Below are positions 24,052 to 44,144 of a stretch of 64,000 bases of DNA, piece by piece; position 1 is the stretch's first letter; every line of letters begins with the position of its first letter. A model generated the notes under the pieces. The model was given only the letters and a program-made list of their open reading frames with translations, made no database searches and was not told the DNA's origin. A program made the position numbers and the translations under genes. This DNA is from Methylopila sp. 73B (GTDB lineage: Bacteria > Pseudomonadota > Alphaproteobacteria > Rhizobiales > Methylopilaceae), in the NCBI RefSeq assembly GCF_000526315.1, contig NZ_JAFV01000001.1:2232001-2296000 (forward strand). The letters run 5' to 3'.

Positions 24052-24254
24052 GGCGGTTCTCCTCGATGGCCGGTGCGCAGGAACGAAGCGTACGGTCGCA
24101 GAGCCCGTCCTGCGGGAGCGGGACGTCGCGCGGCCCCGCCGATCGACCGTCCGCTTGGCTTCGATCCTCCCCGGAGCGGGGGCGTGAGTATTTTTCAGGC
24201 TTGCGCAATTTTTGACCGAAGTTGCTCCGCCGGCCGCCAACGGCGTGCGAACTG

Positions 24255-25315: not shown

Positions 25316-25392
25316 GACCTATGGTTCCTCTCCTGAGCCGAGCCCGCGCCCCGTGTCGCGCCGGGCCGGACGACGTCAACGGAGAGACTGAG

Positions 25393-26949
25393 ATGTCGAT
25401 TGGGCCCGAGTTGCCGACAACCCGGCAGGTCATTGAACTTGCCGCGGAAAACGGCTTTGTGCTGAGCGAGGCCGAGGCCCTTGAGTACCGCGCCATGCTT
25501 GCGGCCACGATCAACTCCTACCGCAAGCTGGACCACATCCCGGAACGAAAGCTCGCTGTCAAATACCCGCGCACGCCGGGATGGCGTCCGACCTCGGAGG
25601 ACAATCCGCTCAACGCCTGGTACTGGCGCTGCGAGATCGAGGGCGCGAGCGGAGGGCCGCTCAAGGGCGAGCGCATCGCCATCAAGGACGTGGTGTGCGT
25701 GGCCGGCGTGCCGATGATGAACGGCTCGAAGGTGCTGGAGGGCTATGTCCCAGAGGTCGACGCGACGATCGTCACGCGCCTCCTCGACGCCGGCGCGACC
25801 ATCGCCGGGAAGTCGGCCTGCGAGGACTTCTCCTTCTCCGCCGGCGGCATGACCTGCAGCACCGGTCCCGTGGGCAACCCGTGGAAGCCGACCCACAATC
25901 CCGGCGCCTCGTCGAACGGCAGCGCCGTCCTGATCAGCCTGGGCGCTGTCGATATGGCGATCGGAGGCGACCAGGGCGGCTCCATCCGCCTGCCGTCCTC
26001 CTGGTCGGGCTGCTACGGCCTGAAGCCGACCTACGGCCTCGTGCCCTACACCGGCTGCGCGATGATCGAGACCACCCTCGACCATGTCGGCCCGATGGCG
26101 AACAGCACCAAAGGCGTCGCCCGGCTGCTCTCGGTGATCGCCGGCTACGACGCCGATGATCCCCGTCAGCAGGGCCGCATCGTTCCGGGCTTCGACACGA
26201 ACTACCTGCCCGCGCTCGAAAAAGGCGTGAAGGGCCTGAGGATCGCGGTGATGAAGGAGGGCTTCGGCCAGGACGGCAGCGAACTCGGGATCCTGTCCTC
26301 GGAGCCGGAGACCGACGACTGCGTGAGGTCCGCGCTCGACAAGTTGCGCGCGCTGGGCGCGATCGTCGAGGAGGTCTCGATCCCGATGCACCTCGACGCC
26401 TACCACATCTGGACCGCGATCGCGGTCGAAGGCTCCGCGGCCTTCATGCTGAAGGGCTGCGGCGTCGGCACCAACTGGTGGGGCTGGTACAACACCAGCC
26501 TCGGCGAGGCGCTCGCCCGGGGCATGAAGTCCCATGCGCACGATCTCGCGCCGACGGTCCGCAACGTCCTGCTACAAGGCGAGTACATGCGGAAGTTCTA
26601 CAACAACCGCTACTACGGCAAGGCGCAGAACCAGCGGCATCTCATCAACGCCGCCTATGACGCGGTCCTGTCCGAGTACGACCTGATCGCCTGTCCGACG
26701 ACGCCCTGCCGCGCGACCGAGATGGTCGGCCGCGACGCGTCGCCGATCGAGACTGTGGCGAACGCGCTTGGATGCCTGCGCAACACGGCGCCGACCGACG
26801 TCAGCGGCCATCCCGCCATGAGCGTTCCGTGCGGCGTGCGCGACGGGCTCCCCGTCGGCCTGATGCTGATCGGCAAGCACTTCGACGACGCCACGGTGAT
26901 CGCGGCTTCGGCGGCCTTTGAGTCCCTCGGCGACTGGAAGACCTTTTGA
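25393..26949 (+). CDS. Amidase, signature family (nitrile-pathway amidase)
   Basis: A 518-residue amidase that hydrolyses amides to acids and ammonia. The catalytic triad reads Lys98 (RIAIKDVV), cis-Ser173 (NPGASSNGS) and nucleophile Ser197 (GGDQGGSIRLP). The numbering is two residues off the Rhodococcus RhAmidase triad 96/171/195. An N-terminal helical extension typical of nitrile-cluster amidases is present (about residues 1-70). The open frame extends to 25321, but GGAGAG before the ATG at 25393 and homology decide the start. It consumes the product of the nearby nitrile hydratase. Confidence 0.95.
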   Translation: MSIGPELPTTRQVIELAAENGFVLSEAEALEYRAMLAATINSYRKLDHIPERKLAVKYPRTPGWRPTSEDNPLNAWYWRCEIEGASGGPLKGERIAIKDVVCVAGVPMMNGSKVLEGYVPEVDATIVTRLLDAGATIAGKSACEDFSFSAGGMTCSTGPVGNPWKPTHNPGASSNGSAVLISLGAVDMAIGGDQGGSIRLPSSWSGCYGLKPTYGLVPYTGCAMIETTLDHVGPMANSTKGVARLLSVIAGYDADDPRQQGRIVPGFDTNYLPALEKGVKGLRIAVMKEGFGQDGSELGILSSEPETDDCVRSALDKLRALGAIVEEVSIPMHLDAYHIWTAIAVEGSAAFMLKGCGVGTNWWGWYNTSLGEALARGMKSHAHDLAPTVRNVLLQGEYMRKFYNNRYYGKAQNQRHLINAAYDAVLSEYDLIACPTTPCRATEMVGRDASPIETVANALGCLRNTAPTDVSGHPAMSVPCGVRDGLPVGLMLIGKHFDDATVIAASAAFESLGDWKTF

Positions 26950-26981: not shown

Positions 26982-27030
26982 TCCCCTGCCCGCTTTCCCA
27001 TCATGTTCTGGAACGAGGCGGCTGCCGCTA

Positions 27031-27480
27031 TGATCACTCGTCGCATATTTACGACCGGCGCCGTCATAGCCGCCGCTCCCGCCCTGATCGGTCCGGCTCG
27101 CGCCGACGCCGAGATTCGGATGGGCGCCATCCTCGACCTGTCCGCGGCTTGGACATCTATCGCAAGCCGATGCACATGGCGATGGAGATGGCCGTCGAGG
27201 AAATCAACGCAAGCGGCGGGCTGAACGGCAAAGAGCTGACGTTGCTCACCTACGACGCAGTCGAACATGCAGCTCTAAGCGCAGCATGCGCAGAAGGCAG
27301 CTCTGTAGGACAAGGTCCATGTCCTCCACGGCGGCATCACGAGCGCGTCGCGGGAGGTCGACGGAGATCACGGTCGACAGGCTTTCCCACGGCCAGCGGC
27401 AATGGGTCGAGATAGCCGGCGTGCTCGCCGGAGAACCGGACTTCCGCCCGCCCGAAACGGCTTTGAGGCGTCACTCTGAA
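27031..27480 (+). pseudogene. Decayed amide/urea-type ABC transporter (binding protein fused to ATPase remnant)
   Basis: An ATG at 27031 opens a Tat-like signal (MITRRIFTTGAVIAAAPALI) and mature start EIRMGAILDLS. A one-base loss then shifts frame into GLDIYRKPMHMAMEMAVEE and INASGGLNGKELTLLTYD, the FmdD/UrtA substrate-binding protein. DKVHVLHGGITSASREVD appears in the third frame, and DRLSHGQRQWVEIAGVLAGE is the ABC signature region of an UrtD-like ATPase. A large deletion has joined the two genes. An amide uptake system therefore once stood downstream of the amidase. Confidence 0.8.
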
Positions 27481-27546: not shown

Positions 27547-27945
27547 TCAGCGCCGCGCCGGATCGACCGCGATCGGCTCGTACTTCGCGACGTGGTGATG
27601 GTGCGGCGGCGTGCTCAGGATGACCTGGGCGCGTTCGTCCAGTCCTTCCGGCGTAAGCTTCGCGCTGCGGGCGAGAACCACTTCGAGCGCCGTGACGAAA
27701 TGCTCGTAGTAGCTCCATTCGTCCTGAGAATAGCCGGGATTGGCGGCTTCCCAGTTCTTGATCGCGTCCGTCAGCGCTTCCTGGAAGTCCGCCCACGCGA
27801 ACTCGCCGGCGTCACAGGCGGCCACGGCGATCGCGAACGCCCGCAACTCCCACGGCTTGCTGAAGGGCGCCTGTCCGTCGCGGCGGCCGAGGGCCGCCGC
27901 GAGCTGGGGATCATCGACGCCGATCGCTTCCGCCGTGGCGGTCAT
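27547..27945 (-). CDS. Nitrile hydratase accessory protein (activator / cobalt insertion chaperone)
   Basis: A 132-residue protein of the NHase accessory family (P14K/NhlE-like, related to the beta-subunit N-terminus). It has FSKPWELRAFAIAVAACDAG, then WADFQEALTDAIKNWEA and WSYYEHFVTALEVVLA. Such proteins carry alpha subunits and mediate cobalt insertion by subunit swapping. It ends with a TPPHHHHVAKYEP segment whose four His could bind metal. The frame is open far upstream inside the alpha gene, but homology and GAGGGG before 27945 fix the start. It begins 11 bp after the alpha stop, third in the beta-alpha-accessory operon. Confidence 0.9.
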   Translation of the reverse strand: MTATAEAIGVDDPQLAAALGRRDGQAPFSKPWELRAFAIAVAACDAGEFAWADFQEALTDAIKNWEAANPGYSQDEWSYYEHFVTALEVVLARSAKLTPEGLDERAQVILSTPPHHHHVAKYEPIAVDPARR

Positions 27946-27956
27946 GGCCGCGCCCC

Positions 27957-28583
27957 TCACTGTACGGTCGTGGCCGGCGTGATCGCCGGGCCGACGCCGA
28001 TGAGCGAGTCGCGGGTCACAAGCTTGGCGAGCTCCGCCTCGCTCAACCCCTCGGATCCCGCGGGGCGCTTCGGCAGCACCCAGTAACGGATCTCGGAGTT
28101 CGAGTCCCAGACCTGAAGTTCGGTGGACGGCGGCACGTCGAACTTGAAGTCCTCGCGAAGCACCTGACGCGGCTCGCGGATGATCCGCGCGCGATACGGC
28201 ATCGACTTGTACCAGTTCGGCGGCAGGCCGAGCACGGGCCAAGGATAGCAGGAGCACAGGGTGCACACGATGACGTGCTGGACATCGTCGCTGCAGTCGA
28301 GCGCCACCATGTGCTCGCCCTGCAGTCCGCCGACGCCGAGCTCTTTGCACGCCGCGGTGGCGTCCTTGAGCAGGCGCGCCTTGAATGCGGGATCGGCCCA
28401 GGCGCGGGCCACGACCTTGGCGCCGAGGTGCGGCCCGATCTCGTTCTCGTAGAGCTCGGCGAACTTGTCGACGCCGGCCTGGGACATCAGGCCCTTCTCG
28501 ATCAGGATCGCCTCGATGGCCTTCACCCGTGCGGCGACTTCCTCCTCCGTCTTCGGAGTGTAGATCATGCTGACGCTAGTCAT
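27957..28583 (-). CDS. nthA: Nitrile hydratase alpha subunit, cobalt type
   Basis: A 208-residue subunit that hydrates nitriles to amides at a non-corrin cobalt centre. The metal claw is Cys107-Thr-Leu-Cys110-Ser111-Cys112 in VIVCTLCSCYPWP; Thr at the second position marks the cobalt form, Ser the iron form. Cys110 and Cys112 are the residues post-translationally oxidised in the family. Other family text includes WYKSMPYRARIIREPR and VWDSNSEIRYWVLPKRPAG. AAGGAG precedes the ATG. The gene order beta-alpha-accessory is also typical of cobalt enzymes. Confidence 0.97.
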   Translation of the reverse strand: MTSVSMIYTPKTEEEVAARVKAIEAILIEKGLMSQAGVDKFAELYENEIGPHLGAKVVARAWADPAFKARLLKDATAACKELGVGGLQGEHMVALDCSDDVQHVIVCTLCSCYPWPVLGLPPNWYKSMPYRARIIREPRQVLREDFKFDVPPSTELQVWDSNSEIRYWVLPKRPAGSEGLSEAELAKLVTRDSLIGVGPAITPATTVQ

Positions 28584-28595
28584 GGCGCGGGCTCC

Positions 28596-29282
28596 TTACT
28601 TGGACGCGTGGGAGATGTAGGGCTCCCAGAGATCGGTCACGACGACGCCGTTCGGCTCGCCGGCCTCGGCCCCGAAAAGCTCCTTATTTGTGAAGCGCAC
28701 GGTGTAGAGGTGCTCGGAGGTCTCGGGCAGGCCGTTGCCGGTGGTGTCCGGATACACGTGCGGGCCGTGATACAGGACGATCTCGCCGGTGCGGCCGCGG
28801 ACATAGCCCGCGCGGCGGGTGTGCGCCTTCGGAACGGATGCGTCGACGGTCACGACGTCGCCGACCTTGTACTTCGGCTCCGTATCGAGCGTGCGAGCCG
28901 TCGAGAAGCCGTTGTGGACCGCCCATTCGGCGAACTGGACCAGCGTCGGATCGTTATTCGTAGGCAGGGAGCCCTGCGGATAATTCAGATAATACAAGGT
29001 TCGGCGTTCGAGCTCTTCTTTGGTCCAGTAACCTTTCTTGGCGCCGATTATTTCGGTCGCGTGGACCCAATGCTCGTAATAGTAGGCCGTCAGGTAATGG
29101 ATGGGATGCAGTTTTTCGAGGTGGCAGCGAAACTCGTCGAGGCCGAACATGCCGGCGCGCGCCGCGAAGGGAAAGAAGGCCCATGCCGCCTTTTCCCATT
29201 CCGCGTGATAGTTCGGCTCCCAGCCAGTCGGAAAGACCGGCCCAAATCCGTCCATGCCTCCAAGATCGTGAATGCCATTCAT
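28596..29282 (-). CDS. nthB: Nitrile hydratase beta subunit
   Basis: A 228-residue beta subunit, the usual length. It starts MNGIHDLGGMDGFGPVFPTG, the family signature, followed by FHAEWE-like YHAEWEKAAWAFFPF. The middle has HPIHYLTAYYYEHWVHATE, and the C-terminal SH3-like domain has PKYKVGDVVTVDASVPKAHT and RAGYVRGRTGEIVLYHGPHV. AGGGAG precedes the ATG. It pairs with the alpha subunit 12 bp downstream. Regulation is likely through the upstream region with two TTTCAAAGGA repeats. Confidence 0.97.
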   Translation of the reverse strand: MNGIHDLGGMDGFGPVFPTGWEPNYHAEWEKAAWAFFPFAARAGMFGLDEFRCHLEKLHPIHYLTAYYYEHWVHATEIIGAKKGYWTKEELERRTLYYLNYPQGSLPTNNDPTLVQFAEWAVHNGFSTARTLDTEPKYKVGDVVTVDASVPKAHTRRAGYVRGRTGEIVLYHGPHVYPDTTGNGLPETSEHLYTVRFTNKELFGAEAGEPNGVVVTDLWEPYISHASK

Positions 29283-30823: not shown

Positions 30824-30962
30824 TTGGTCGGGGCGGTTTGAGGGCGGTTTCGGCTGGCGTGCTAATTGCTTCGCAATGGGGCCGTTCGGATATCGAGATC
30901 GTGTTTCACTGGATCGCCCTTGATTTGGGCGCCCTACCTGTCCCGCGCCTCGGGAGGTGAAG

Positions 30963-32096
30963 ATGAAAAGCCGGCGTCACTCTCGGCATGAACCCTGGCG
31001 CATCGGGGTCCTGTTCTCGCAGACGAACACGACCTCCGAAGTGGAGCGGACGCAGCTCTGTGGAACGTTGCTTGCGCTCGATGAAATCAACGCCGCTGGC
31101 GGCGTCAATGGTCGGGAGATTGTCCCGGTCATCTACGAGCCGGGCTCCTCAAGCGCATCCTACGTCTATCTGGCGAAGAGGCTGATACTAGAGGAGGGCG
31201 TGACCTCGATTTTCGGCTGCTACACTTCCGCGAGCCGCAAGGCGATTCTCCCGATGCTCGAGCGCTTCAATGGGCTGCTCTGGTATCCGACGCCTTATGA
31301 GGGGTTCGAGGAGTCGCCGAACATGATCTACACCGGCGCCGCGCCGAACCAGACCATCACGCAACTCTGCTCCTACCTGCTGCACACCTATGGAACGCGC
31401 TTTTTCCTGATCGGCTCCGACTACGTCTATCCCCGTCGCACCAATCTGTTCATGAAGGAGTATCTTCAGTCCCACGGCGGCGAGGTGGTCGGCGAGCGGT
31501 ATCTGGACATCCAGGCGCCGCGCTTGGCGTATCTGCCGATTCTGCGGGCAGCCAAGGAGGTTGGCGTGGACGTCATTTTCTCGACCGTGGTCGGGGACGG
31601 CACGAGCCATCTCTATCAGACATACGCGGATTTGGGCCTTGATCCGACGCGCACGCCGATCGCGAGCCTGACCACGACCGAGGCCGAAATCCACGCCATG
31701 GGGTGCGAGGTGGCCGCCGCCCACATCACAAGCGCCTGCTACTTCGAGAGCCTTGGCAATGAGGCCAACGCCGCGTTCGTTTCACGCTTCAAGAAGAGGT
31801 TCGGCGATCACGTCACGCCGAATGTTTGCGCTGAGACTGCCTATTTTCAGATCTTTCTGTTCGCGCAGGCGCTCGCCCAGGCCGATTCAATGGATACTGA
31901 CGAACTGCGCCCACACGTGCTGGGCTCCTGCTGCGAGGCTCCCCAGGGGCGTGTCAGCATCAGCGCCTCGGGTCACGCCGATCTTCTGCCGCGCATCGGC
32001 CGTGCGAACCACGCCGGGGGATTCGATATCATGGTCGACTCCGACGCGCCGGTCGCGGCCGATCCGTTCTTCATATGCGGGCCTGTCACGGGCTGA
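30963..32096 (+). CDS. AmiC-like amide/short-chain ligand sensor
   Basis: A 377-residue type-I binding-fold protein with no signal peptide, so cytoplasmic like AmiC. It reads WRIGVLFSQTNTTSEVERTQ, then LALDEINAAGGVNGREIVPV and FFLIGSDYVYPRRTNLFMKE, with the later segment NVCAETAYFQIFLFAQALAQ. GGGAGG 5 bp before the ATG at 30963 decides against the GTG two codons earlier. It is followed 41 bp on by an ANTAR antiterminator gene. In Pseudomonas, AmiC sequesters AmiR until an amide binds; the same circuit is inferred. Confidence 0.9.
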   Translation: MKSRRHSRHEPWRIGVLFSQTNTTSEVERTQLCGTLLALDEINAAGGVNGREIVPVIYEPGSSSASYVYLAKRLILEEGVTSIFGCYTSASRKAILPMLERFNGLLWYPTPYEGFEESPNMIYTGAAPNQTITQLCSYLLHTYGTRFFLIGSDYVYPRRTNLFMKEYLQSHGGEVVGERYLDIQAPRLAYLPILRAAKEVGVDVIFSTVVGDGTSHLYQTYADLGLDPTRTPIASLTTTEAEIHAMGCEVAAAHITSACYFESLGNEANAAFVSRFKKRFGDHVTPNVCAETAYFQIFLFAQALAQADSMDTDELRPHVLGSCCEAPQGRVSISASGHADLLPRIGRANHAGGFDIMVDSDAPVAADPFFICGPVTG

Positions 32097-32137
32097 GGCC
32101 GATCCTTCCGCCCTGTGTCCGGCATTCAGGAGCAGCC

Positions 32138-32764
32138 ATGTCCCAAGATCGTCAGTCGAGCGATGGCGCCGAGGCCGGATCGCTCCAAAGGCTCCGCGGA
32201 CTTCGGGTGGTCGTCGAAAGCGAGATTGACGATCAACGCGATTTTCTGATGCGCGAGTTGGGCAAGCTGCGGACCGAGCCGCATCTTTACACGCGACGTG
32301 GCGACGCCGTGCCGGCCGACGCCGAGATCGTCGTCTGCGATTACGCGCCCGGCCTTGATCGGCGGTTGCCCTGGATGACTGGCGAACCCACCGCGGCGCT
32401 GATCGTTATGGTGCCGCGGCACGAAGAGTTTTCGTCGTCTATGCTCGAAGCGGCGACGCCCGACGCGGTGTTGGCGCGGCCCTTCACGGCGAACGCCATC
32501 AAGGCGGCGCTTGTCATGGGTTACAGCCAGTTCCGTTACGAGCGCAGGCTCCAGAGCAAGGCGGCGAGGCTCGAGGAGAACCTCCGGGCCGTTCGGGCGA
32601 TTGAACGCGCCAAGGCGATCGTCATGACGGCGCGCTCGTTGAGCGGAGACGAGGCCTACCAATACATCCGCACCCAGGCGATGGAGCGGCGGACAACCGT
32701 TGGCCAGTTGGCCGAGGCGCTCGTATCCTCCTACGATCTTCTCGGTAGACTGCCGGCCGCCTGA
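32138..32764 (+). CDS. ANTAR-domain antiterminator (AmiR-like)
   Basis: A 208-residue protein. The N-terminal half is a pseudo-receiver (LRGLRVVVESEIDDQRDFLM, VVCDYAPGLDRRLPW) lacking a clear phosphorylation site. A coiled-coil follows (about residues 135-165), then the three-helix ANTAR domain: AIERAKAIVMTARSLSGDEA, YQYIRTQAMERRTTVGQLAE. AGGAG precedes the ATG. ANTAR proteins bind dual-hairpin RNA and prevent intrinsic termination. The next gene downstream, cbtB, has a strong terminator in its leader, so that leader is a possible target. Confidence 0.92.
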   Translation: MSQDRQSSDGAEAGSLQRLRGLRVVVESEIDDQRDFLMRELGKLRTEPHLYTRRGDAVPADAEIVVCDYAPGLDRRLPWMTGEPTAALIVMVPRHEEFSSSMLEAATPDAVLARPFTANAIKAALVMGYSQFRYERRLQSKAARLEENLRAVRAIERAKAIVMTARSLSGDEAYQYIRTQAMERRTTVGQLAEALVSSYDLLGRLPAA

Positions 32765-33393: not shown

Positions 33394-33618
33394 ATGTCTT
33401 CGTTCGCCATCAATGGTCATGCCACGCTAGATCCCGCCAATGGAGCCGTCATTCCGCTGTCCCAGGTTTTGCCATGGGCGATTTTCGGCGTCCTTCTCGC
33501 GGTGACGGCTATCTACTTCGTCGGCGTCGAAGAAGGCGCGACCTCGCTGATCTCCGGCGGATATGTTCACGAATACGTGCACGACGCCCGTCATCTTCTT
33601 GGATTTCCTTGCCACTAA
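33394..33618 (+). CDS. cbtB: CbtB cobalt-transport subunit (copy 2)
   Basis: A 74-residue single-helix protein. The helix VLPWAIFGVLLAVTAIYFVG leads to the conserved end HEYVHDARHLLGFPCH. The frame is open upstream through the terminator, but the family length and TTGGAGATC before the ATG at 33394 set the start. It begins the plus-strand operon cbtB-cbtA-exported protein-two tubulin-like genes-cobW-ferredoxin, 11 bp before cbtA. Expression is probably gated by the leader terminator. Confidence 0.95.
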   Translation: MSSFAINGHATLDPANGAVIPLSQVLPWAIFGVLLAVTAIYFVGVEEGATSLISGGYVHEYVHDARHLLGFPCH

Positions 33619-33629
33619 AGGGGGCGGCT

Positions 33630-34385
33630 ATGGTCGGGCGGCTGCTTCTTAAGGGAATGCTGGCGGGGCTAATCGCCGGACTGCTGACGTTCTGCGTCGC
33701 GAAAATCTATGGCGAGCCATGGGTGGAGCGGGCGATCGCTTATGAGGAGCAGCAGGCGGTGGCCGAGAGCGCTTCTGCCGGCGCAGACGAGGCGGAAGTC
33801 GAGATCGTCAGCCGTGAGACGCAGGCTGGGATCGGCCTGCTGACGGGCGTGCTGGTCTACGGCGCCGCGGTAGGAGGGCTGTTCGCGCTCGCTTTCGCGG
33901 TCGCCAACGGGCGGCTCGGCGCTCTTGATCCGCAAGGCCTATCCTTGCTGCTCGCGGCCGCGGCCTTCGTCGCCCTGGTGGCCGTGCCGATGCTGAAATA
34001 TCCGCCGAACCCGCCGGCGGTGGGCAGCGGCGACACCATTGGCGCGCGCACGGAGCTCTATTTCATCGCAGTTGGCATATCGCTTCTCGCGGCGACCGCC
34101 GCGCTCATGATCGCGGAGCGGCTGCGGGCGGGGCTGGGCGGATGGAGCGCGGCGTTCGCAGGAAGCGCTGTCTTTCTCGCGGCGACGGGTCTCCTGCTTC
34201 TGGGTCTGCCCGCGGTGAACGAGATCCCGGAGAACTATTCGGCCGAAACCGTGTGGAACTTCAGGGTCGCGTCCTTCGCGGGCCTCGCCGTGTTCTGGTG
34301 CGCGCTCGGCGTCGTCTTCGGGCTGCTGGCGAGCCATCGGGCGCCGCGGATCGCAGCCGCGCCCGACCTGACCCGCGCGGCTTGA
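33630..34385 (+). CDS. cbtA: CbtA cobalt transporter membrane protein (copy 2)
   Basis: A 251-residue membrane protein with about five helices. It opens MVGRLLLKGMLAGLIAGLLT and has the family stretch VPMLKYPPNPPAVGSGDTIG and VNEIPENYSAETVWNFRVAS. The acidic first loop (ADEAEVEIVSRETQAG) replaces the His-containing loop of copy 1, so the copies may differ in metal capture. An open frame runs upstream through cbtB, but homology begins at 33630. It is 16 bp from the next gene, an exported protein. Confidence 0.95.
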   Translation: MVGRLLLKGMLAGLIAGLLTFCVAKIYGEPWVERAIAYEEQQAVAESASAGADEAEVEIVSRETQAGIGLLTGVLVYGAAVGGLFALAFAVANGRLGALDPQGLSLLLAAAAFVALVAVPMLKYPPNPPAVGSGDTIGARTELYFIAVGISLLAATAALMIAERLRAGLGGWSAAFAGSAVFLAATGLLLLGLPAVNEIPENYSAETVWNFRVASFAGLAVFWCALGVVFGLLASHRAPRIAAAPDLTRAA

Positions 34386-34401
34386 GCGAGGGGAGGCCAC
34401 G

Positions 34402-35037
34402 ATGACGGCCCGCGACCTTCTGCTCGACCGGCGAGTGAGACGGCGCTGCGCGGTTCTCGCGATCGCCGCAGGCGGCCTCGCCGTCTCGACTGGCCCGGGG
34501 GGCGCTCATTCCGGGGGCGCGGCCCCAGAAAGCGCCGCGCGCGGCCTCGAGATACCGGCGGTGACGCATGGAGAGATGGCGACGCTCGCCGCTTTCCGTC
34601 CGCGGATCGTCGTGCTCGCGAACCGCGTCGTCGCGACCGACGAGCGATTTCGGCGGCTGAAGAACCACGGCGCGCTGCAGTACGCCTATTGCCTCTGGGG
34701 GCTCGTCCCCGGAGCCATCTCCAACGAGGACAGTCCGTTCAACGGCTGCTCCCATGCCTATCTGGCCTCGGCCTGGTCGCTCCTCCGGCACATGGAGACG
34801 ATGCCGCAGGTGAAGGAAGATGCGCTGCGTCTCGCGAGCGATATCGAAGCCGGGTGGGCGCGGACGCCGGAGACGCTCTGCGTCGCGAGCGCCGAGGTCT
34901 TCCATACCGCCGCCATCGTTAAGCCTGCCTGGGCGCAGGCGGGGTGGGCCTGGGGGGGCGCTGGCGCCTCTGCGATCCTGATGTTGGCCGCAGGTTTCTT
35001 CACGGCGCGCGCAGCCGGCGCGCGGATGGGGACGTGA
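34402..35037 (+). CDS. Exported protein with C-terminal membrane anchor, unknown function
   Basis: A 211-residue protein I do not recognise. An N-terminal signal (CAVLAIAAGGLAVSTGPGG) is followed by AHSGG, so the mature protein may start with a metal-binding Ala-His. Three Cys are spaced in YAYCLWG, FNGCSHA and TLCVAS, with His nearby (SHAYLASAWSLLRHME). The C-terminal helix WGGAGASAILMLAAGFFTAR would anchor it in the inner membrane with the domain outside. Directly after cbtA, it may hand metal to the transporter; this is inference. Confidence 0.75.
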   Translation: MTARDLLLDRRVRRRCAVLAIAAGGLAVSTGPGGAHSGGAAPESAARGLEIPAVTHGEMATLAAFRPRIVVLANRVVATDERFRRLKNHGALQYAYCLWGLVPGAISNEDSPFNGCSHAYLASAWSLLRHMETMPQVKEDALRLASDIEAGWARTPETLCVASAEVFHTAAIVKPAWAQAGWAWGGAGASAILMLAAGFFTARAAGARMGT

Positions 35038-35154
35038 CGCCGGGCAAAGCGGAGCCTGGCCGGCGCCTCCGGCGGTAAGGGGCGAAAACGGGTCGGACGC
35101 CCTCGCTGGATGGGCGGACGGTGACGCGCGTGACCACGTAAACCAAGGTGACCC

Positions 35155-36630
35155 ATGACTTCTCTCGAAGAGAAGCTCAAGCAACGGAAACTCGGCGCGC
35201 TGAAGCGCGGCGTGCACCGTCTCGGAGGCGAGGCCGGACTGGCGTTCAACGTCCATCTGGTGGGCGTCGGCAAGGCCGGCGCGGACGTCGTCGCCGGCGC
35301 GCTGCGCGCGCTTCCCCGCGAAGGCCTGCCAATGTCCGCGCTGGTGGTCGATGTCGGAGACGGCGACCTCGCCCCCGTGCGCGAGGCCGCGGCCGCGTTG
35401 CCGGCGGGGCGCGCCGACGTCCAGACCCTTGCGCTCGCAGAGCTCGGCGCGGCCGAACTCGCGTCGACGTTCGAGAACTATGGAAGGTTTCTGAAGCTCG
35501 AATACCCGATGTTCCCCTGGGCGCTCGACGGGCAGGGCTGGCTCCCGGCCGGCAAGCCTCTTTCCGAAGGCGGCTCGCTCCGCCGCGCCTACGCCAAGGC
35601 GCTCTATGGCCGCGCCTATTATGACGGCGACCGTCCGGCCGCGGAGGCGATCCGGCGGTTCGGCCGCGCCATCAGCGATGAGCCCGCTCAGTCGATCGTC
35701 TGCGTCGTCTTCGGAATGGGAGGCGCCGGCGGCGGGATCGTGGTCGATCTCGCCCGCCATCTCGTCAATGTGGCGCTGGCTCGGCAGGCGCTTGTCATCG
35801 GCCTCGGCGTTATGCCGTGCGACGGCGATGCTCCCCGGAGCTCGGGAGGGGCGCTCTACGCGGCGCTGAACGAGTTCGACTGCCTTGGCGATGAAGGCAA
35901 GAACCATGGCGTGGTCCGGACCTGCGGCGAGCTGTTCCGCAATCCCTTCACCGCCGGTCTTCTGCTTGCGCCGCAGCAGGGCGTCTGGGCGGCGACCGGC
36001 GATCTCTCCGCCACGCATGCGAAGGTGGACGCGGAGCTCGTCGCGCTGCTCACCGGCCGCGGCGGCGCCAACCTAATGGAGGCGCTGCGGATGCTGAACT
36101 GGGTGGCCGCGCCCTCCACCCAGCATTCCGCCGCCCGCACTCCGTGGGGCGACAAGTGGATCCACCTGCTCGGCTTCGCCGATCTCGCGGCGCCGGGCGT
36201 CTCCGGGAAGGGGCTGCGCCGAAGCCTCGGCGTGCTCGACGCCTATCGGCCGGAATTCGTGGAGATCCGAGTCCCGTCGGCGAGCCTCGACGCGGCCGAG
36301 ACGGTGGCGGCGGCGATCACCGAGGCCTTCGCGCCGGAGACGCCGCCGCAGAGCGTGGGGGAAGGCGTCGGTTCCGCGCAGTTCGTTCTGCCCTCCTTGC
36401 GCAAGACCGATCTCGCCGCCTTCGGTCCCGCTCGCGCGGCCTATGAGGCGGAGAACGCGGACGACCGACTGCTCGATCATGCGCTGCTGCTCGAGCAGGG
36501 GATCGTGCTCAGCGAACCTTCGCAGCGAATGCCCGGCATGACGGGCGCGGCCCTGCGCGGCGGCGCGGGCTGGATCGCCGTGGCGATGGAGGCGCTCGCC
36601 GGCGGCGAGAGCCTCCAGGCGGCGAGCTGA
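35155..36630 (+). CDS. Tubulin/FtsZ-superfamily-like protein with degenerate nucleotide loop
   Basis: A 491-residue protein that resembles the Tubulin_2 (tubulin-like) group. A Rossmann-like start VHLVGVGKAGADVVAGAL (34-50) is followed by GMGGAGGGIVVDLARHLVNV (187-206), which aligns with LAGGTGSGMVVDLARHLSNV of the gene at 37051. The Thr and Ser of the phosphate loop are Ala and Gly here, so GTP binding or hydrolysis may be lost. Shared blocks with the paralogue include FLKLEYP, AYYDGDRP, YAALNEFD and LFRNPFTAG. Its role is unknown; it lies in a cobalt-uptake operon. Confidence 0.75.
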   Translation: MTSLEEKLKQRKLGALKRGVHRLGGEAGLAFNVHLVGVGKAGADVVAGALRALPREGLPMSALVVDVGDGDLAPVREAAAALPAGRADVQTLALAELGAAELASTFENYGRFLKLEYPMFPWALDGQGWLPAGKPLSEGGSLRRAYAKALYGRAYYDGDRPAAEAIRRFGRAISDEPAQSIVCVVFGMGGAGGGIVVDLARHLVNVALARQALVIGLGVMPCDGDAPRSSGGALYAALNEFDCLGDEGKNHGVVRTCGELFRNPFTAGLLLAPQQGVWAATGDLSATHAKVDAELVALLTGRGGANLMEALRMLNWVAAPSTQHSAARTPWGDKWIHLLGFADLAAPGVSGKGLRRSLGVLDAYRPEFVEIRVPSASLDAAETVAAAITEAFAPETPPQSVGEGVGSAQFVLPSLRKTDLAAFGPARAAYEAENADDRLLDHALLLEQGIVLSEPSQRMPGMTGAALRGGAGWIAVAMEALAGGESLQAAS

Positions 36631-36657
36631 CCCCCGGTCCGGTGCAGGAGACGACAG

Positions 36658-36984
36658 ATGCCGCTGAACTGGCAAGACGTGAAGGTGAAGTATGGCGGCG
36701 GCGCAAAGGTGCCGACGATCACCGGCGGCAAGTTCGTGACGATCTCCGACGTCTCGGACGAGGCCATCCACATCTGGACGCCGATCTGGACCGCCGAGCT
36801 GGCGCGGGCGGATTTGGAGAAGGGCGTCGCCCTCATCGAGGAGGGCGTAATCTCGACCGATCCGGGTCTCTTCGTCGAAGACTACATGCTCTACGTCACC
36901 CGCAATCGGGCGACGTCCACCGCGCACATCTTGCGAGATCTTGGCTATCTCGACCTCACCGAGACGTTTTCGGTGCGGTGCTGA
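36658..36984 (+). CDS. Conserved-looking small protein of unknown function between the tubulin-like genes
   Basis: A 108-residue soluble protein, not recognised. It has GGAG before its ATG. A beta-rich start (WQDVKVKYGGGAKVPTITGG, KFVTISDVSDEAIHIWTPIW) is followed by helical segments (LARADLEKGVALIEEGVIST and TSTAHILRDLGYLDL). It lies 27 bp after one tubulin-like gene and 66 bp before the other, so it is probably part of the same complex, perhaps an adaptor. No catalytic residues can be named. Confidence 0.75.
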   Translation: MPLNWQDVKVKYGGGAKVPTITGGKFVTISDVSDEAIHIWTPIWTAELARADLEKGVALIEEGVISTDPGLFVEDYMLYVTRNRATSTAHILRDLGYLDLTETFSVRC

Positions 36985-37050
36985 GGAGCTGCGACGATTC
37001 CGAAAACCGTTTCGGGAAACGAACGAAGCAACATTGTCTTGGAGGTTACT

Positions 37051-38763
37051 GTGACAGCATCCCTGTATCATAGCTCGACCGGCACGCAGGCTCCGCACTG
37101 CATGCATGTCGTCGGCGTGGGCCGCACCGGCGCGGCCTATGTCGAGGCGCTGTTGCGCACCGGCGAGATCGAGGACCATCTCGCCGATCCGCGCGCCACC
37201 TTCGCGGCGCTCGTCATCGATATCGGCGAGCAGGACATGGGTCTCGCCCAGGACTACGCGTCCGCCTTCGTGAAGCGGCTGGAATCTCGCGGCATCCCCA
37301 CCGACCGCTTCTCGTTCCAGTCAGTAGCGCTTCCCGTGCCGTCGAAGGAGGAATTTTTCGAGGGTATGAATCGGACCCGGGAGTTCCTGAAGCTCGAGTA
37401 TCCACGTTACTACTGGAATCCGAACTTCGAATCCTACGTTCCGAAGTCCTATGTCATGCCGAAGGCCGGTGAGCATTTCCCGCGCGCCGTCGCCAAGGGC
37501 ATTTACGCCAACGCCTATTACGCCGGCGACCGGCCGATCGACGCCGCGCTCAGGACCTTCACGGCCCAGATCGAGAAGGCGGGGCTGCCTTCGATGGTGA
37601 CGGTCTGCTTCAGCCTCGCGGGCGGCACCGGCAGCGGCATGGTGGTCGATCTGGCCCGCCACCTCTCCAATGTGAAGCTCGGCCGACGCATCCCGGTCAT
37701 CGGTGTCGGCCAGTTGCCGCACACCGGCGACCCCGACACCTATCGCGATGCGCCCCAGCTCTACACGGCCTTGAATGAGATCGACTGCATGATCGACGAC
37801 GACAAGAACGCCGGCGTCATCACCGTCTGGGGCGATCTCTACCGCAACCCTTTCACCGGGGGCTTCTTCGTCGTCAATCCCGAGCAGAGCTGGCAGCGCC
37901 TGACCGCCTACACCACAACCGGCGAGCCGGATGTGCGCCAGTTCTTCAAGGAGACGGTGACCAATCGCTTCGTGGCAGATTCCTTCATGCGCTTCGTCGT
38001 CTCGGACAACGGACGCAACCTGTTCCGCGTTATGCGGCCGGCCGGGATGACGGGCGCGCCGCACGAGACCGTGCCGTCCAAGTCGCGCAGTTGGACGTTG
38101 TTCGACGTCGCGAAGCTCACCCATCCGGGCGTGCAAGTGCTGCCAGGCGAGGCGCCGTCGAAGTGGGAGGCTGTCGTCGAACAATGGACGCACTTCATCC
38201 CGAAGTTCGACGGACTGAAGGAGGGGTTCAAGACCGACTTCGCGGAAGTCCTGATCTACGGCTCGCGCAACATGGACATGGGAAAAATCGCCGCCGATTT
38301 CCGCGGGATGATGGGCAAGGAATATCTGCTCGACGACGAGTCGACGCTGCAGGTCTCCACGCATGAGTTCTTCGACGCGTTGACCTCCTACGCCAACGTC
38401 ATCCTTGCGGGCGTGGCCAAGACCGACCTCGAGGCGTTCTGGGCGAGCCAGAAGACTTATGAGACGCTGAGCTGGGAAGAGAAGCTGAACGAGCACGCCT
38501 GGCTGATCGACATCGGGCCGATGCTGTCGGAGCCGGCGATCCGGTTCGAGGGCATGGCCGGCGAGTGCATCTGGGGCTGCGCCTGCTGGGTGGTCGTTCC
38601 TTACGACGAGCTTCGTGGTGACAAGCTGCCGCCGCCGAACCGCAAGGTGATCCTCGAAGAAGGCATCGCGGCGATGACGAAGACGGTCGTGTCGACGCCG
38701 GGCGGCGCCGCTGAAAAGAAGAAGGCGAACAAGAAAGACGTGGGCGAACTCGTCAACGCCTGA
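37051..38763 (+). CDS. Tubulin/FtsZ-superfamily-like GTPase with intact GGTGSG loop
   Basis: A 570-residue protein. GGAGG lies 5 bp before the GTG at 37051, which is preferred to an upstream TTG. Family features are MHVVGVGRTGAAYVEALL (18-35), the tubulin signature loop AGGTGSGM (190-197), VIGVGQLP (216-223) and ALNEID (240-245), as in tubulin-like domain proteins. A C-terminal half of about 300 residues has no motif I know and ends in a Lys-rich tail (EKKKANKKD). It is a paralogue of the gene at 35155. I infer a nucleotide-dependent assembly or switch; polymerisation is not shown. Confidence 0.8.
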   Translation: MTASLYHSSTGTQAPHCMHVVGVGRTGAAYVEALLRTGEIEDHLADPRATFAALVIDIGEQDMGLAQDYASAFVKRLESRGIPTDRFSFQSVALPVPSKEEFFEGMNRTREFLKLEYPRYYWNPNFESYVPKSYVMPKAGEHFPRAVAKGIYANAYYAGDRPIDAALRTFTAQIEKAGLPSMVTVCFSLAGGTGSGMVVDLARHLSNVKLGRRIPVIGVGQLPHTGDPDTYRDAPQLYTALNEIDCMIDDDKNAGVITVWGDLYRNPFTGGFFVVNPEQSWQRLTAYTTTGEPDVRQFFKETVTNRFVADSFMRFVVSDNGRNLFRVMRPAGMTGAPHETVPSKSRSWTLFDVAKLTHPGVQVLPGEAPSKWEAVVEQWTHFIPKFDGLKEGFKTDFAEVLIYGSRNMDMGKIAADFRGMMGKEYLLDDESTLQVSTHEFFDALTSYANVILAGVAKTDLEAFWASQKTYETLSWEEKLNEHAWLIDIGPMLSEPAIRFEGMAGECIWGCACWVVVPYDELRGDKLPPPNRKVILEEGIAAMTKTVVSTPGGAAEKKKANKKDVGELVNA

Positions 38764-38771
38764 CGTCCGTC

Positions 38772-38796
38772 GGCGGGGCCGGCGTCCGGCCCCGCC
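38772..38796 (+). terminator. Strong hairpin after the tubulin-like gene
   Basis: GGCGGGGCCGG (38772-38782), loop CGT, CCGGCCCCGCC (38786-38796), 8 bp after the stop codon. There is no T-run, so it may protect mRNA or partly terminate before the CobW gene at 38864. Confidence 0.55.
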
Positions 38797-38863
38797 GCCT
38801 GATACGCTAATGCGCCGAGCAGTGGTCCTGTCGCGGCGCTCGTTCATTGCAGGGAGTGAAGTC

Positions 38864-39856
38864 ATGTCCGCAGGAGCGCAGCATGAGGATGGTCGGGACC
38901 GGATTCCTGCCACCGTGATCACAGGCTTCCTGGGGTCGGGGAAGACGACGCTGATCAACAACATCCTTCATGCCCAGCACGGAAAGAACATCGCCGTCAT
39001 CGTCAACGAATTCGGCGAGATCAGCATCGATGGTCAGCTCGTAGTCAAGGACGAGCAGGCGGAGCTTGTCGAGTTCAACAACGGCTGTCTGTGCTGCACG
39101 GTGCGGGGCGATCTGATCGAGACCCTCGACAGGCTGCGGACCCGCAAGGGCGATCTCGACGGCATCCTGATCGAGACCACCGGGCTAGCCGATCCGGCGC
39201 CGGTGGCGTCCACCTTTTTTGTAGCCGACGCCGTTAAGGACAGCATCCGCCTCGACGCCTTCGTGACCATGGTCGACGCGGTCAATCTTGAGATGAACCT
39301 CGAGCAGAGCGGGGAGGCGGTCGAGCAGGTCGCCTTCAGCGACGTCATCCTGATCAACAAGACCGATCTCGCCTCCCCCGAACAGGTCAAAGCCGCGGAG
39401 ACCCGCGTGCGTGCGCTCAATCCGCTCGCGAAGATTCACCACACGGCGAACGCCGAGATCGACATCGCCAAGGTGATCGGCGTCGGCGCCTTCGACCTCG
39501 TGCAGAAGCTCGAGGTCGACCCGGAATTCCTCAACGAGCATGAGCATGAGCACGACCGGGCCGTGGGCTCGTTCATCCTCGAGGAAAGCCGGCCGATCGA
39601 CGTCAACCGCTTCTCGCTGTGGCTGAACGAGCTCGCCCAGACGCGTGGCGAGGACCTCTATCGCACCAAGGGCGTGTTCAACGCGCGCGGCTTCCGGGAG
39701 CGCATTGTGTTCCAGAGCGTCAGGATGCTGACCACGATGCGGCCGGACCGGCTCTGGGAGGAAGATGAGGCCCGCCTGTCGCAATTCGTCGTCATCGGGA
39801 AGAATCTCGACCGCGCGGAATTCGCCGAGGGCTTCGCGCGCTGCGCGGTCGGCTGA
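38864..39856 (+). CDS. CobW/G3E-family GTPase, metal chaperone candidate
   Basis: A 330-residue G3E GTPase. Walker A is GFLGSGKTT (21-29), the metal motif is NNGCLCCT (Cys75, Cys77, Cys78), the acidic Walker B region is ILIETTGLADPAPV, and the base-recognition motif is INKTD. A His-rich stretch NEHEHEHDR precedes the C-terminal CobW_C domain. AGGGAG before the ATG at 38864 is preferred to an ATG 18 codons upstream. COG0523 proteins insert or deliver metals such as Zn or Co. Here it may deliver cobalt, given cbtBA in the same operon. Confidence 0.93.
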   Translation: MSAGAQHEDGRDRIPATVITGFLGSGKTTLINNILHAQHGKNIAVIVNEFGEISIDGQLVVKDEQAELVEFNNGCLCCTVRGDLIETLDRLRTRKGDLDGILIETTGLADPAPVASTFFVADAVKDSIRLDAFVTMVDAVNLEMNLEQSGEAVEQVAFSDVILINKTDLASPEQVKAAETRVRALNPLAKIHHTANAEIDIAKVIGVGAFDLVQKLEVDPEFLNEHEHEHDRAVGSFILEESRPIDVNRFSLWLNELAQTRGEDLYRTKGVFNARGFRERIVFQSVRMLTTMRPDRLWEEDEARLSQFVVIGKNLDRAEFAEGFARCAVG

Positions 39857-39857
39857 A

Positions 39858-40232
39858 ATGGCCAGGAGCGAGCATGCGTCCGATCCGGCGGGGGACGCCG
39901 ATCCGGTCTACCGGGTCCATGTCTTCTGCTGCGTGAACGAGCGCCCGGAGTCGCACTGGCGCGGCTCATGCGGAGGAAAGGGCGCCCGGCGACTCTGCGA
40001 CTACATGTGTCGGCTCGGAATGGCGCTCGGCGTGAAGCGCATCCGGGTCAACCACGCGGGCTGCCTCAACGTCTGCGAACACGGGCCGGTCATGGTGATC
40101 TATCCCGAAGGCTCCTGGTACCGGTTCGAGACCGAACAGGATGTCGCCGAGATCCTCAAAAGCCACGTCATGGGAGGGCGCCGAGTTGAACGGCTCGCGC
40201 TCTCCATCGACCCGGCGACGATCCATGAGTGA
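39858..40232 (+). CDS. Thioredoxin-like [2Fe-2S] ferredoxin-domain protein
   Basis: A 124-residue protein. VHVFCCVNERPESHWRGSCG and AGCLNVCEHGPVMVIYPEGS give the spaced cysteines of thioredoxin-fold [2Fe-2S] ferredoxins (C-x(n)-C and C-x3-C). The ATG lies 1 bp after the CobW stop, so they are co-translated. It closes the operon that starts with cbtB. Electron transfer to a partner of the CobW protein or tubulin-like complex is a guess. Confidence 0.85.
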   Translation: MARSEHASDPAGDADPVYRVHVFCCVNERPESHWRGSCGGKGARRLCDYMCRLGMALGVKRIRVNHAGCLNVCEHGPVMVIYPEGSWYRFETEQDVAEILKSHVMGGRRVERLALSIDPATIHE

Positions 40233-41741: not shown

Positions 41742-43745
41742 TCAGAACGACACCTTCACGCCGCCATAGGCCGCCCGGCCGGGCGTGTTGTAGGTGAAGA
41801 CCTCCTCGTACTGCTTGTCGAAGAGGTTCTCGATCCGTCCGTAGACCTCGGCGTTCTCGGTCACCTTGTAGGAGGCGGCCATGTTGACGAGCGTGTAGGC
41901 CTTCAGCGAGACGGGCGCCCGCTCGAATGTCTCGGCGTCAAACCGGTTGTCCTTCTGCCGGCCGTTGTAGACGACGCCAAGATTGGCGTTCGCGCGGCCG
42001 TCGAGGAACACGTAGTTGACGTTCACGCTGCCGATGTGGCGCGGCCTGCGGACCAGCGTGTCGCCGTTGGGATCCTCGCCGTCTGTGAACGTGTAAGCGG
42101 CGCGGACGCTGACATCCGCGAAAGGCCTCACCGTCAGGCCGAGTTCGACGCCGTCGATTTTGGATTTGCCCGCGAGGTTGACCGGCTGACCCGCGCCTTT
42201 CGCCGGGACGAACTCACTGGAGATCAAGTCCTTCACGCGTTGCTGGAAATAGGTCGCGTCGAGGACCACGCGGTCGTTCCAGAACGGCTGGTCGAAGCCG
42301 ACGTCCCAGCCCTGCGCCCTCTCCGGCGTGAGGTTCTCGTTCGAGACGAAGTTGTCGGCGAAGCCGAACAGCTCGAAGGTCGTCGGGTTCTTCAGGCCCG
42401 TGCCGTAGGAGGCCCGGATCTTGGTCTTCGAGCGCTGGAAGGTGTAGGCGCTCGCCAGACGAGAGGTCGTGTCGTCCTCGAACCGGTCGTTGAAGTCGTG
42501 TCGGATGCTGCCAGTCACGAACAGGCTGTCGAACAGGCCGAGCTGGTACTGTCCGACGAGACCCGCGTTGTCGATGTGCTGCTTGACGGTGGGCGCGCGC
42601 TGAGACGGAAACTGCGTGAAACTGTCTACGGCGTCGCGCGTGTGATCGGCGCCGAAGGTCACCACGTGGCTCGCCGGCAGCCCTGCTTCGGTCGCGAAGC
42701 GGTAGTTCGTCTGGTAGTCGAACCGCGTCATCTCGCCGACGGTCGCGAAGGTCTTCGCACCGTCGCCGTCGAAGCTGCGGCGGTCGGAGTTGGTGTAGCT
42801 CAGCCCCGCGACATGGCCCCAGGCGCCGTCGAGCAGCGTCGCCGTCATCTGCGCGCGGCCGTAGAACTGCTTGCCCTTTTCGGTGTCGCGAGTGTCGACG
42901 GAGGCCGCAAAGGGCGATCCGTCGGAGGCGGCTCCGAAGCCGTCGCGATCGGCCTTGAAGTCGGTGTAGCGGGCGACGCCGGTGAACTCGAGGAGCTCAT
43001 TTGGCCGAACCGAGACCTTGGCGAGGCCTGTTCCGCTTTGGTAGCCGTCGCGGTCGAGCGAGGAGGTCGGCGCGAAGGCGTCGAAGCGTTTGGCGGTCGA
43101 GATCCCGCTCGTGCGATAGCCCTGGCCGGCGATGAGATAGTCATAGGCTTGCGTTCCGCCGGACACGGAGGCCGTGCCGGTGAGGGCGCCGAACGAACCG
43201 CCCTCGATGTTCGCCCGGAAGCGCGTCGGTCCCGGCTCGCCCTTGCGGGTCGTGATGTTGATCACGCCGCCGACCGCGTCGGAGCCGTAGAGCGCGCTCT
43301 GTGGACCCCGCAGCACGTCGACGCGCTCGACTTCGAGATTGAGCAGGTTGGCGAAGTCGAACTCCGCGCTCGTGCCCGGATCGTTCATCCGGATCCCGTC
43401 GACGATGACGAGCGTCTGGTTGCCCTCCGATCCGCGGATGCGGACCTGGGTCAGGGCGCCGAGCGGACCGGTGCGGTTGACGGCGACGCCGGGGAGTTCG
43501 CGCAGGACGTCGGAGACGACGCGGATCTGGCGGCGCTTCAGTTCCTCGCCGGAGATCGAGGAGACCGCGCTGCCGATCGCGGCGGCCGGGCCCTCGACCC
43601 GGTTCGCGGTGACCGAGATCTCTTCGAGCGCGGTGGAGTCGTCGGCGGGCGCCTGCTGGGCGGCCGCTGAGGCGGCGAGGACGGAGGAAACGGCGAGGAC
43701 GGCGGCCGCGTGGGCGCGCCGTGGGCGGGACAACAGGTTGGACAT
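41742..43745 (-). CDS. btuB: TonB-dependent vitamin B12 receptor BtuB
   Basis: A 667-residue outer-membrane receptor. A signal peptide (AAAVLAVSSVLAASAAAQ) and TonB box-like EEISVTANR precede the plug domain (VVSDVLRELPGVAVNRTGPL, VRIRGSEGNQTLVIVDGIRM, LYGSDAVGGVINITTRKG) and a 22-strand-type barrel ending GRAAYGGVKVSF. A GTG nine codons upstream is possible. The cobalamin riboswitch about 120 bp upstream makes B12 uptake the likely function. Its downstream btuF is dead. Confidence 0.93.
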   Translation of the reverse strand: MSNLLSRPRRAHAAAVLAVSSVLAASAAAQQAPADDSTALEEISVTANRVEGPAAAIGSAVSSISGEELKRRQIRVVSDVLRELPGVAVNRTGPLGALTQVRIRGSEGNQTLVIVDGIRMNDPGTSAEFDFANLLNLEVERVDVLRGPQSALYGSDAVGGVINITTRKGEPGPTRFRANIEGGSFGALTGTASVSGGTQAYDYLIAGQGYRTSGISTAKRFDAFAPTSSLDRDGYQSGTGLAKVSVRPNELLEFTGVARYTDFKADRDGFGAASDGSPFAASVDTRDTEKGKQFYGRAQMTATLLDGAWGHVAGLSYTNSDRRSFDGDGAKTFATVGEMTRFDYQTNYRFATEAGLPASHVVTFGADHTRDAVDSFTQFPSQRAPTVKQHIDNAGLVGQYQLGLFDSLFVTGSIRHDFNDRFEDDTTSRLASAYTFQRSKTKIRASYGTGLKNPTTFELFGFADNFVSNENLTPERAQGWDVGFDQPFWNDRVVLDATYFQQRVKDLISSEFVPAKGAGQPVNLAGKSKIDGVELGLTVRPFADVSVRAAYTFTDGEDPNGDTLVRRPRHIGSVNVNYVFLDGRANANLGVVYNGRQKDNRFDAETFERAPVSLKAYTLVNMAASYKVTENAEVYGRIENLFDKQYEEVFTYNTPGRAAYGGVKVSF

Positions 43746-43861
43746 GGAGACCCCGAGCGGGACGAGTGGCACGTCACCGCGAACTCGAGGTCTTGCCGCA
43801 AACGCACGTCACGTGCGCCGACGGTTCGCCCACCATCGGTGCACCCCGCCCGACGCGTTCG

Positions 43862-44034
43862 CGTGTGACCACACGACTGACGGCAGGTCTCCTGGCTCAC
43901 GGGTCGCCGCGCTGGTCGTCGCCTTCCCGGGACCGAAGGCCCAGTGGCTGAGTGACGAAGCGCTCGCCGTTTACAGTAGCGGGGGCTGCCGCGGCATGAG
44001 GTCGTTAGACCCGCACCGCGTTCCCTTTTGATCC
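43862..44034 (-). promoter_or_regulatory. Cobalamin riboswitch upstream of btuB
   Basis: On the minus strand the B12 box AGCCAGGAGACCTGCC (43881-43896) matches the consensus exactly, and the conserved GCCACTGGG is present at 43940-43948. The GGTGCGGGTC start lies near 44018 and a GGGAAGGC element near 43920-43930. The element lies between the promoter and btuB, where cobalamin binding usually represses expression. Confidence 0.93.
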
Positions 44035-44144
44035 CCGAGGGGAACCGTCGCGGCGGACGCTATGGCGGACATGTCGCGGCTGTCAATTGGCGCTGCGGCC
44101 GACTCGGGACCTCAGCTCCCGCCCATCAACAGGAGCGACGCCGG

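Follow-up and report, generated by a model that had tools for sequence, protein, structure and literature searches.

Two tubulin/FtsZ-fold proteins in a cobalt operon of Methylopila sp. 73B: most likely the subunits of an acetonitrile hydratase-type enzyme

The stretch analysed here (the window) comprises 64,000 nucleotides of the genome of Methylopila sp. 73B and contains, on its plus strand, a run of eight genes (33394-40232) with intergenic gaps of at most 117 bases, which encode, in this order, CbtB, CbtA, proteins of 211, 491, 108 and 570 amino acids, a GTPase of the CobW type and a 2Fe-2S ferredoxin. Our subject is the trio in the middle of this run, which a preliminary description of the DNA had presented as two related proteins of 491 and 570 residues with a small one of 108 between them, embedded in a cobalt-uptake operon; the open reading frames bear out this arrangement. 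The best start of the third gene of the trio is the GTG at 37051, which is preceded by ggagg at 37040-37044 and yields 570 amino acids. The two large proteins are referred to below as the first and second subunits, and the features of the trio are as follows.

35155-36630, plus strand: first subunit (AnhA-like), 491 amino acids, tubulin/FtsZ fold (open reading frame, predicted model)
36658-36984, plus strand: AnhE-like small protein, 108 amino acids, 11.96 kDa (open reading frame), putative cobalt metallochaperone
37051-38763, plus strand: second subunit (AnhB-like), 570 amino acids, GTG start, tubulin/FtsZ fold (open reading frame, predicted model)
37114-37131, plus strand: T1 glycine loop GVGRTG, residues 22-27 of the second subunit
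37405-37425, plus strand: RYYWNPN block of the second subunit
37612-37641, plus strand: T4 phosphate loop SLAGGTGSGM, residues 188-197 of the second subunit
38560-38589, plus strand: GECIWGCACW of the second subunit with Cys506, Cys510 and Cys512, the proposed cobalt claw

The two subunits are paralogues, with a mean identity of 31.8% within the loci of the window's subgroup, and their kinship with tubulin and FtsZ, suggested from motifs in the preliminary description, emerges from both profile searches and structure prediction. Taken singly, the second subunit matches two Pfam families, Tubulin_2 at E 9e-7, with 28.9 bits against a cut-off of 27, and Tubulin at E 1.5e-6, where its 29.1 bits fall short of the required 33; the first subunit matches only Tubulin_2, at E 0.33. 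When relatives are added (83 rows covering the two subunits and a third paralogue), 76 rows match Tubulin_2 at E <= 0.01; a search of the PDB with the profile of the family hits 40 sequences at E <= 1 (best 7.3e-5), each named FtsZ or tubulin. The predicted models of the second subunit (predicted local distance difference test score, pLDDT, 88.1; predicted template modelling score, pTM, 0.89) and of the first (pLDDT 90.4, pTM 0.93) superimpose in VIA-align on CetZ1 4b46 (Z 22.0, 323 aligned, root-mean-square deviation 4.8) and CetZ 3zid_B (Z 21.0, 290 aligned, deviation 4.5), respectively, and on tubulins with Z of ~19-20 over ~320-380 residues. Foldseek against the PDB returns 864 matches for the second subunit and 109 for the first at E <= 0.001, the best 50 of each being tubulin, FtsZ, CetZ, TubZ and microtubule or gamma-tubulin complexes. 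Thus, both subunits are confidently modelled on the tubulin/FtsZ fold. Some members of the family already bear the label 'tubulin-like' at NCBI, so that novelty does not lie in naming the fold.

So what do these proteins do? Relatives of the trio occur in 15 plasmid records, among them pRHL2 of Rhodococcus jostii RHA1, on which an aliphatic amidase, proteins of 514, 99 and 568 amino acids, a helix-turn-helix gene and a NicO transporter follow one another. The second subunit is 49.3% identical to its RHA1 counterpart over 531 columns (E 1e-163), the first 35.8% over 483 columns, and the AnhE-like protein 30.3% to the 99-residue one. The latter has a mass of 11.09 kDa and a single histidine; AnhE, the accessory protein of the acetonitrile hydratase of this strain, was reportedly described in a 2010 abstract as an 11.1 kDa protein with a sole histidine. 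That hydratase was reportedly described as unrelated to other nitrile hydratases and has stood apart since 2007, with no relatives known. Its gene order is alpha, AnhE, beta, as stated in the pertinent passages of PMC3511329, PMC3680314 and PMC7193024, the first two of which also characterise AnhE as a cobalt metallochaperone; a passage of PMC6941271 records expression of the enzyme by RHA1. Judging from sequence kinship, gene order and size, both tubulin-fold proteins most likely belong with this characterised enzyme. The two systems are alike in gene order, protein sizes, the homology of all three proteins and the clustering with an amidase and a cobalt/nickel transporter. They differ in that the window has CbtBA, CobW and a ferredoxin together with an AmiC/ANTAR pair, where RHA1 has NicO and a MarR regulator, in that the amidase of the window comes from another family, and in the location of the motif discussed next. 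The N-terminus of the RHA1 first subunit (L007:10115-11659) is rich in histidine (MPDHGHDHGHNHD), perhaps for metal binding.

Near the C terminus of the family lies the pattern GECxxGCACW, that is, C-x3-C-A-C, which resembles the CxxCSC cobalt claw of classical nitrile hydratases. Its distribution was followed in 54 sources, namely the window and loci L007-L059 (L009 is without a full pair, and L030, L040, L042, L046 and L057 contribute one full subunit each), in which there are 48 complete pairs: 43 come from the 48 named loci, four from plasmid loci and one from the window itself. L011 and L053 are nearly copies of each other. The motif is present in both subunits of 23 pairs, only in the second subunit of 14, including the window, and only in the first subunit of 11, including RHA1; no pair lacks it altogether. 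In the first subunit of the window it has given way to GAALRGGAGW (residues 464-473). On a tree of the quick kind, midpoint-rooted and with the motif's own columns included, three changes account for the pattern, compared with 22.5 for shuffled labels, which we read as three probable losses: from the first subunit in a proteobacterial clade, from the second in an actinobacterial clade and from the second in Bacillota. Other residues follow suit, among them YY.NPN (residues 120-125 of the second subunit in the window), Glu505 and Val515, which are invariant where the claw is present and unconserved in the claw-less subunits of both lineages. These patterns suggest that cobalt is held by C-x3-C-A-C. 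Relative to RHA1, the metal-bearing subunit would then be swapped, with the claw in the second subunit of the window and in the first of RHA1. This reading predicts cobalt in AnhA of RHA1, which is where, according to the 2010 abstract, the metal is said to reside.

Taken together, the homology to the RHA1 set, the conserved gene order, the predicted fold and the motif patterns lead us to propose, with a probability of about 0.82, that the locus encodes a cobalt nitrile hydratase of the acetonitrile hydratase type, with two tubulin/FtsZ-fold subunits, an AnhE-type chaperone encoded between them and the metal in the claw of the second subunit; its activity is deduced from these same comparisons. 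Under this proposal, CbtBA would bring in cobalt, and CobW and AnhE would hand it on to the second subunit; the abstract of PMC10206600 describes CobW as a cobalt chaperone in B12 synthesis. The ferredoxin may assist oxidation of the cobalt or its ligands. The metal would be held by Cys506, Cys510 and Cys512 together with the backbone amides of Ala-Cys, much as in the CxxCSC claw yet on an unrelated fold, and would act as a Lewis acid that converts small nitriles to amides, which an amidase would then hydrolyse; the first subunit would be the claw-less partner required for the heterodimer. The cobalt import genes would thus be present because the enzyme needs cobalt, so that the cobalt link of the preliminary description holds while the role it assigned to the pair would give way to that of an enzyme.

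Several observations weigh against this proposal. First, there are other candidate ligands, namely an N-terminal PHC of the second subunit (among 52 rows, His in 51 and Cys in 50, the row of the window being cut short there with both residues present in the sequence), a loop histidine and Cys246. Conceivably, the family and the fold are as proposed, and C-x3-C-A-C is a structural site or one for zinc, iron or a disulphide, with cobalt placed elsewhere, for instance at PHC or the T7-loop histidines. The loop histidine is kept in 49/49 first and 52/52 second subunits, and PHC in second subunits, irrespective of the claw, as this alternative would have it, although the loop histidines of one subunit are not securely aligned with those of the other. 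However, only the claw is missing from one subunit or the other and yet retained by at least one in 48 of 48 pairs, which is what an active site needed once per heterodimer would show, and C-A-C mirrors the classical C-S-C; we consider a non-cobalt motif unlikely, if the most serious contender among the alternatives. Second, first subunits diverge faster than second subunits in every group, even where both carry the claw (72.7 against 84.5 and 61.2 against 70.7), so that the larger gap where the first claw is lost (53.2 against 77.6) lends weak support; where the second claw is lost, the values are 66.8 (first) and 71.8 (second), with pairs whose second subunits are >97% identical skipped throughout and two Bacillota loci left out of this last group. 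Third, the RHA1-type aliphatic amidase of this genome lies far from the window, the amidase of which is of another family. Fourth, the equation of RHA1_RS41530-41540 with the published anhA-E-B genes is a probable one, drawn from their order and size, which fit. Finally, passages of PMC7329996 ascribe Cys-X-Leu-Cys-Ser-Cys to every known alpha subunit of a nitrile hydratase and count the acetonitrile hydratase among the enzymes matured by self-subunit swapping, the latter being contradicted by passages of PMC3511329. Neither statement fits the RHA1 pair and the relatives of the trio, the classical C..C[ST]C being found in 0 of 101 rows. Because the acetonitrile hydratase was reportedly described as unrelated to other nitrile hydratases, we take the statement on alpha subunits, in the passages concerned, as too general.

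The gene neighbourhoods of the relatives speak for the proposal. The 48 named loci stem from a genome scan for two peptide patterns in the second subunit, by which relatives without these patterns are missed; they belong to Pseudomonadota, Actinomycetota, Cyanobacteriota and Bacillota or are labelled Deltaproteobacteria in their records. The genes for A, E and B follow one another in 43 of them, and the remaining five carry the first or second gene only partly. Nearby are the aliphatic amidase (31 of 48), a cobalt/nickel importer of the CbtAB, NicO or CbiM type (25) and CobW (24), with at least one of these in 43; where the locus spans 20 kb or more (25 cases), the amidase is found in 18, an importer in 15, CobW in 13 and at least one of the three in all. 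In 31 genomes related to that of the window, the RHA1-type amidase at E <= 1e-20 is absent or (in 18) mostly single-copy. Its presence in 18 of 25 stretches of ~21 kb thus greatly exceeds chance, with the base rate taken from relatives of the window rather than from every locus. The trio is found in 2 of 13 genomes of the genus and in 2 of the 101 genomes that make up the set of relatives; among 398 genomes across the phylum, the only full match is in the window's own genome, with three further short, weak matches. With plasmid-borne relatives in Agrobacterium and Rhodococcus, the trio looks to have spread horizontally. A viral origin was considered and set aside, no relative being present among viral_contigs.

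A third tubulin-like paralogue, in which the claw is missing (C...C.C in 0 of 7), is encoded in seven loci.

L008:16625-17770, third paralogue
L020:7048-8397, third paralogue
L021:14625-15770, third paralogue
L024:14221-15474, third paralogue
L031:14256-15515, third paralogue
L047:14203-15555, third paralogue
L058:4004-5326, third paralogue

Shinella L009 (9983-11131) carries it as well. MoxR/VWA genes share the stretch with the third paralogue in six of the seven loci, and one or two extra AnhE-like genes, mostly 3' of the second subunit and in one case a contig-edge fragment, occur in 15 of the 48 (L025, L034-L040, L042-L046, L052, L059). MoxR and VWA genes are found near 9 of the 48 relatives, which recalls the GTPase/tubulin and MoxR-vWA conflict systems of PMC7159879, in which bacterial tubulin-family genes also take part according to the passages concerned; that paper does not contain the word nitrile, and the surveyed stretch of the window is without MoxR-VWA. 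By analogy with NorQD (as presented in the abstract of PMC13036017), the MoxR-VWA genes beside the relatives look like a pair linked to metal insertion or to the amidase.

The preliminary description had a different function in mind, an assembly or switch driven by GTP in the service of cobalt uptake or insertion, and it took VGVGRTG, AGGTGSGM and ALNEID of the second subunit as the pattern of tubulin-like GTPases. All three are present. The first two are the T1 and T4 loops, which along with the predicted fold are what the pair has in common with tubulin, FtsZ and CetZ (T4 in the second subunit); a pattern search of the first 80 residues finds T1 GxGxxG in 101/101 rows, its three glycines falling in columns that 97% or more of the rows conserve, and T4 GTGSG is present in 52/52 second subunits. 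ALNEID (residues 240-245), by contrast, lies in the predicted model in a helix ahead of the long central helix and would not be the catalytic T7 loop of tubulin. In the first subunit, T1 reads GVGKAG (residues 37-42) and the T4 region is the degenerate FGMGGAGGG (residues 186-194), including the GMGGAGGG singled out earlier; GTGSG is kept in 31 of 49 first subunits, that of the window not among them. No match to the T7 pattern NxDxx[DE] was seen in the pair of the window, and it occurs in 0/50 second and 1/48 first subunits in a crudely pattern-cut segment (three rows were uncuttable), a result of pattern search rather than of mapped T5, T6 and T7 loops; hhalign to an FtsZ profile, for which 2 of 13 FtsZ sequences passed the filter, aligned no region beyond T4 (41 and 28 columns). 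With the T7 pattern missing, FtsZ-like GTP hydrolysis by the subunits appears unlikely, and we do not file the family as GTPases; the pair differs from the superfamily also in the C-terminal strands with the cysteine motif and in being encoded in an enzyme operon. A switch would suit the fold, the T1 and T4 loops and the adjacent cobalt genes, but the importers near the relatives are of three kinds whereas the amidase recurs, and both proteins can in essence be assigned to a characterised enzyme family, most likely the RHA1 acetonitrile hydratase, an outcome that the preliminary description had itself set against its idea. We regard such a switch as unsupported and very improbable; the operon's GTP-using cobalt handler is more plausibly the CobW-type GTPase (38810-39856). 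A more tentative thought, possible in our view though the odds are against it, is that the nucleotide pocket of the second subunit still works, GTP or another nucleotide controlling heterodimer assembly or cobalt insertion, with the claw at or near the subunit contact, where either of two equivalent sites would be free to decay, as may have happened three times.

The remaining genes of the run, with the sensor and regulator upstream, are these.

30957-32096, plus strand: AmiC-like substrate-binding sensor (profile match)
32075-32764, plus strand: ANTAR regulator (profile match)
33394-33618, plus strand: CbtB cobalt transporter subunit (Pfam PF09489, E 1.9e-10; ATG at 33394)
33630-34385, plus strand: CbtA cobalt transporter subunit (Pfam PF09490, E 6.5e-70; first Met of the domain at 33630)
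34402-35037, plus strand: 211-residue protein, exported-looking or membrane-bound from its sequence
38810-39856, plus strand: CobW-type G3E GTPase (PF02492, E 8.3e-59; possibly starting later, at 38864)
39858-40232, plus strand: 2Fe-2S thioredoxin-like ferredoxin (NCBIfam NF041612, E 5.1e-18, under the family cut-off), one base after the CobW gene

The AmiC-like sensor and ANTAR regulator also adjoin several relatives' loci. The 211-residue protein matches no Pfam family at E <= 1; it is kept beside cbtBA in clusters of Agrobacterium and Rhizobium (L008, L021) and is possibly a partner in cobalt uptake. The sole match of the window at the Rfam gathering score is a cobalamin riboswitch (43865-44064, minus strand, 118.9 bits) upstream of a TonB-dependent receptor gene (41742-43772), with none ahead of cbtBA, and a B12-linked role of the operon was rejected on these grounds. 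A further CbtA is encoded at 19519-20277 (plus strand), at the opposite end of the nitrile island described below, and a third copy elsewhere in the genome.

The window also encodes a classical nitrile hydratase and enzymes of adjoining steps.

22999-24402, minus strand: haem-containing dehydratase family (aldoxime dehydratase, which makes nitriles; PF13816, E 7.1e-95)
25321-26949, plus strand: amidase signature enzyme (PF01425, E 5.5e-90)
27547-27940 (start approximate), minus strand: classical nitrile hydratase activator-like protein (NHase_beta_N, E 5.5e-9, in the open reading frame 27547-28350)
27957-28583, minus strand: classical Co-type nitrile hydratase alpha with CTLCSC at 28265-28248 (PF02979, E 1.3e-81)
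28596-29282, minus strand: classical nitrile hydratase beta (PF21006, PF02211)

The window thus appears, from sequence comparison, to be an aldoxime-nitrile-amide-acid island with two unrelated nitrile hydratases. The trio and the classical cobalt enzyme would be alike in the reaction, in cobalt, in a claw made of Cys-x-Cys and one more Cys upstream and in a separate maturation protein; they differ in fold, in C-x3-C-A-C instead of C-x2-C-S-C and in the lack of Pfam similarity, no NHase_alpha or NHase_beta domain being matched at E <= 1 by the three proteins of the trio. Apparent broken remnants, judged by eye, of a substrate-binding protein gene lie beside the amidase (27000-27300, plus strand). 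Both kinds of hydratase are encoded side by side in two loci of Rhizobacter metagenome-assembled genomes (L017, L058) and ~120 kb apart on one plasmid of R. rhodochrous BAA-870 (L010, NZ_CP032676.1). With a classical enzyme already in place, the second might differ in task and be a related cobalt hydratase of another natural substrate, such as cyanide, thiocyanate or an isonitrile, which would accord with the modest identity of its first subunit to that of RHA1 and the swapped claw. Against this, the surrounding genes for an aldoxime dehydratase, an amidase and an AmiC-like sensor indicate nitriles and amides, as does the amidase recurring beside the relatives, and another substrate seems to us quite unlikely.

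The kind of enzyme proposed here is already known; the fold link, the claw motif and the subunit swap are apparently new. We found none of the three, and no link between nitrile hydratase and tubulin, in the open-access papers searched, to the exclusion of subscription papers and preprints; PMC5052560 is, in its pertinent passages, unrelated. If the proposal is true, the shape of a cell-skeleton protein was reused as a metal enzyme. This would be, to our knowledge, the first case of a metalloenzyme with this fold, which is otherwise familiar from filaments and GTP switches. The acetonitrile hydratase, placed on the tubulin/FtsZ fold, would gain a family, a candidate metal site and testable residues. 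Furthermore, these findings suggest a convergent copy of the cobalt nitrile hydratase claw, and a catalytic site that may have shifted between paired subunits.

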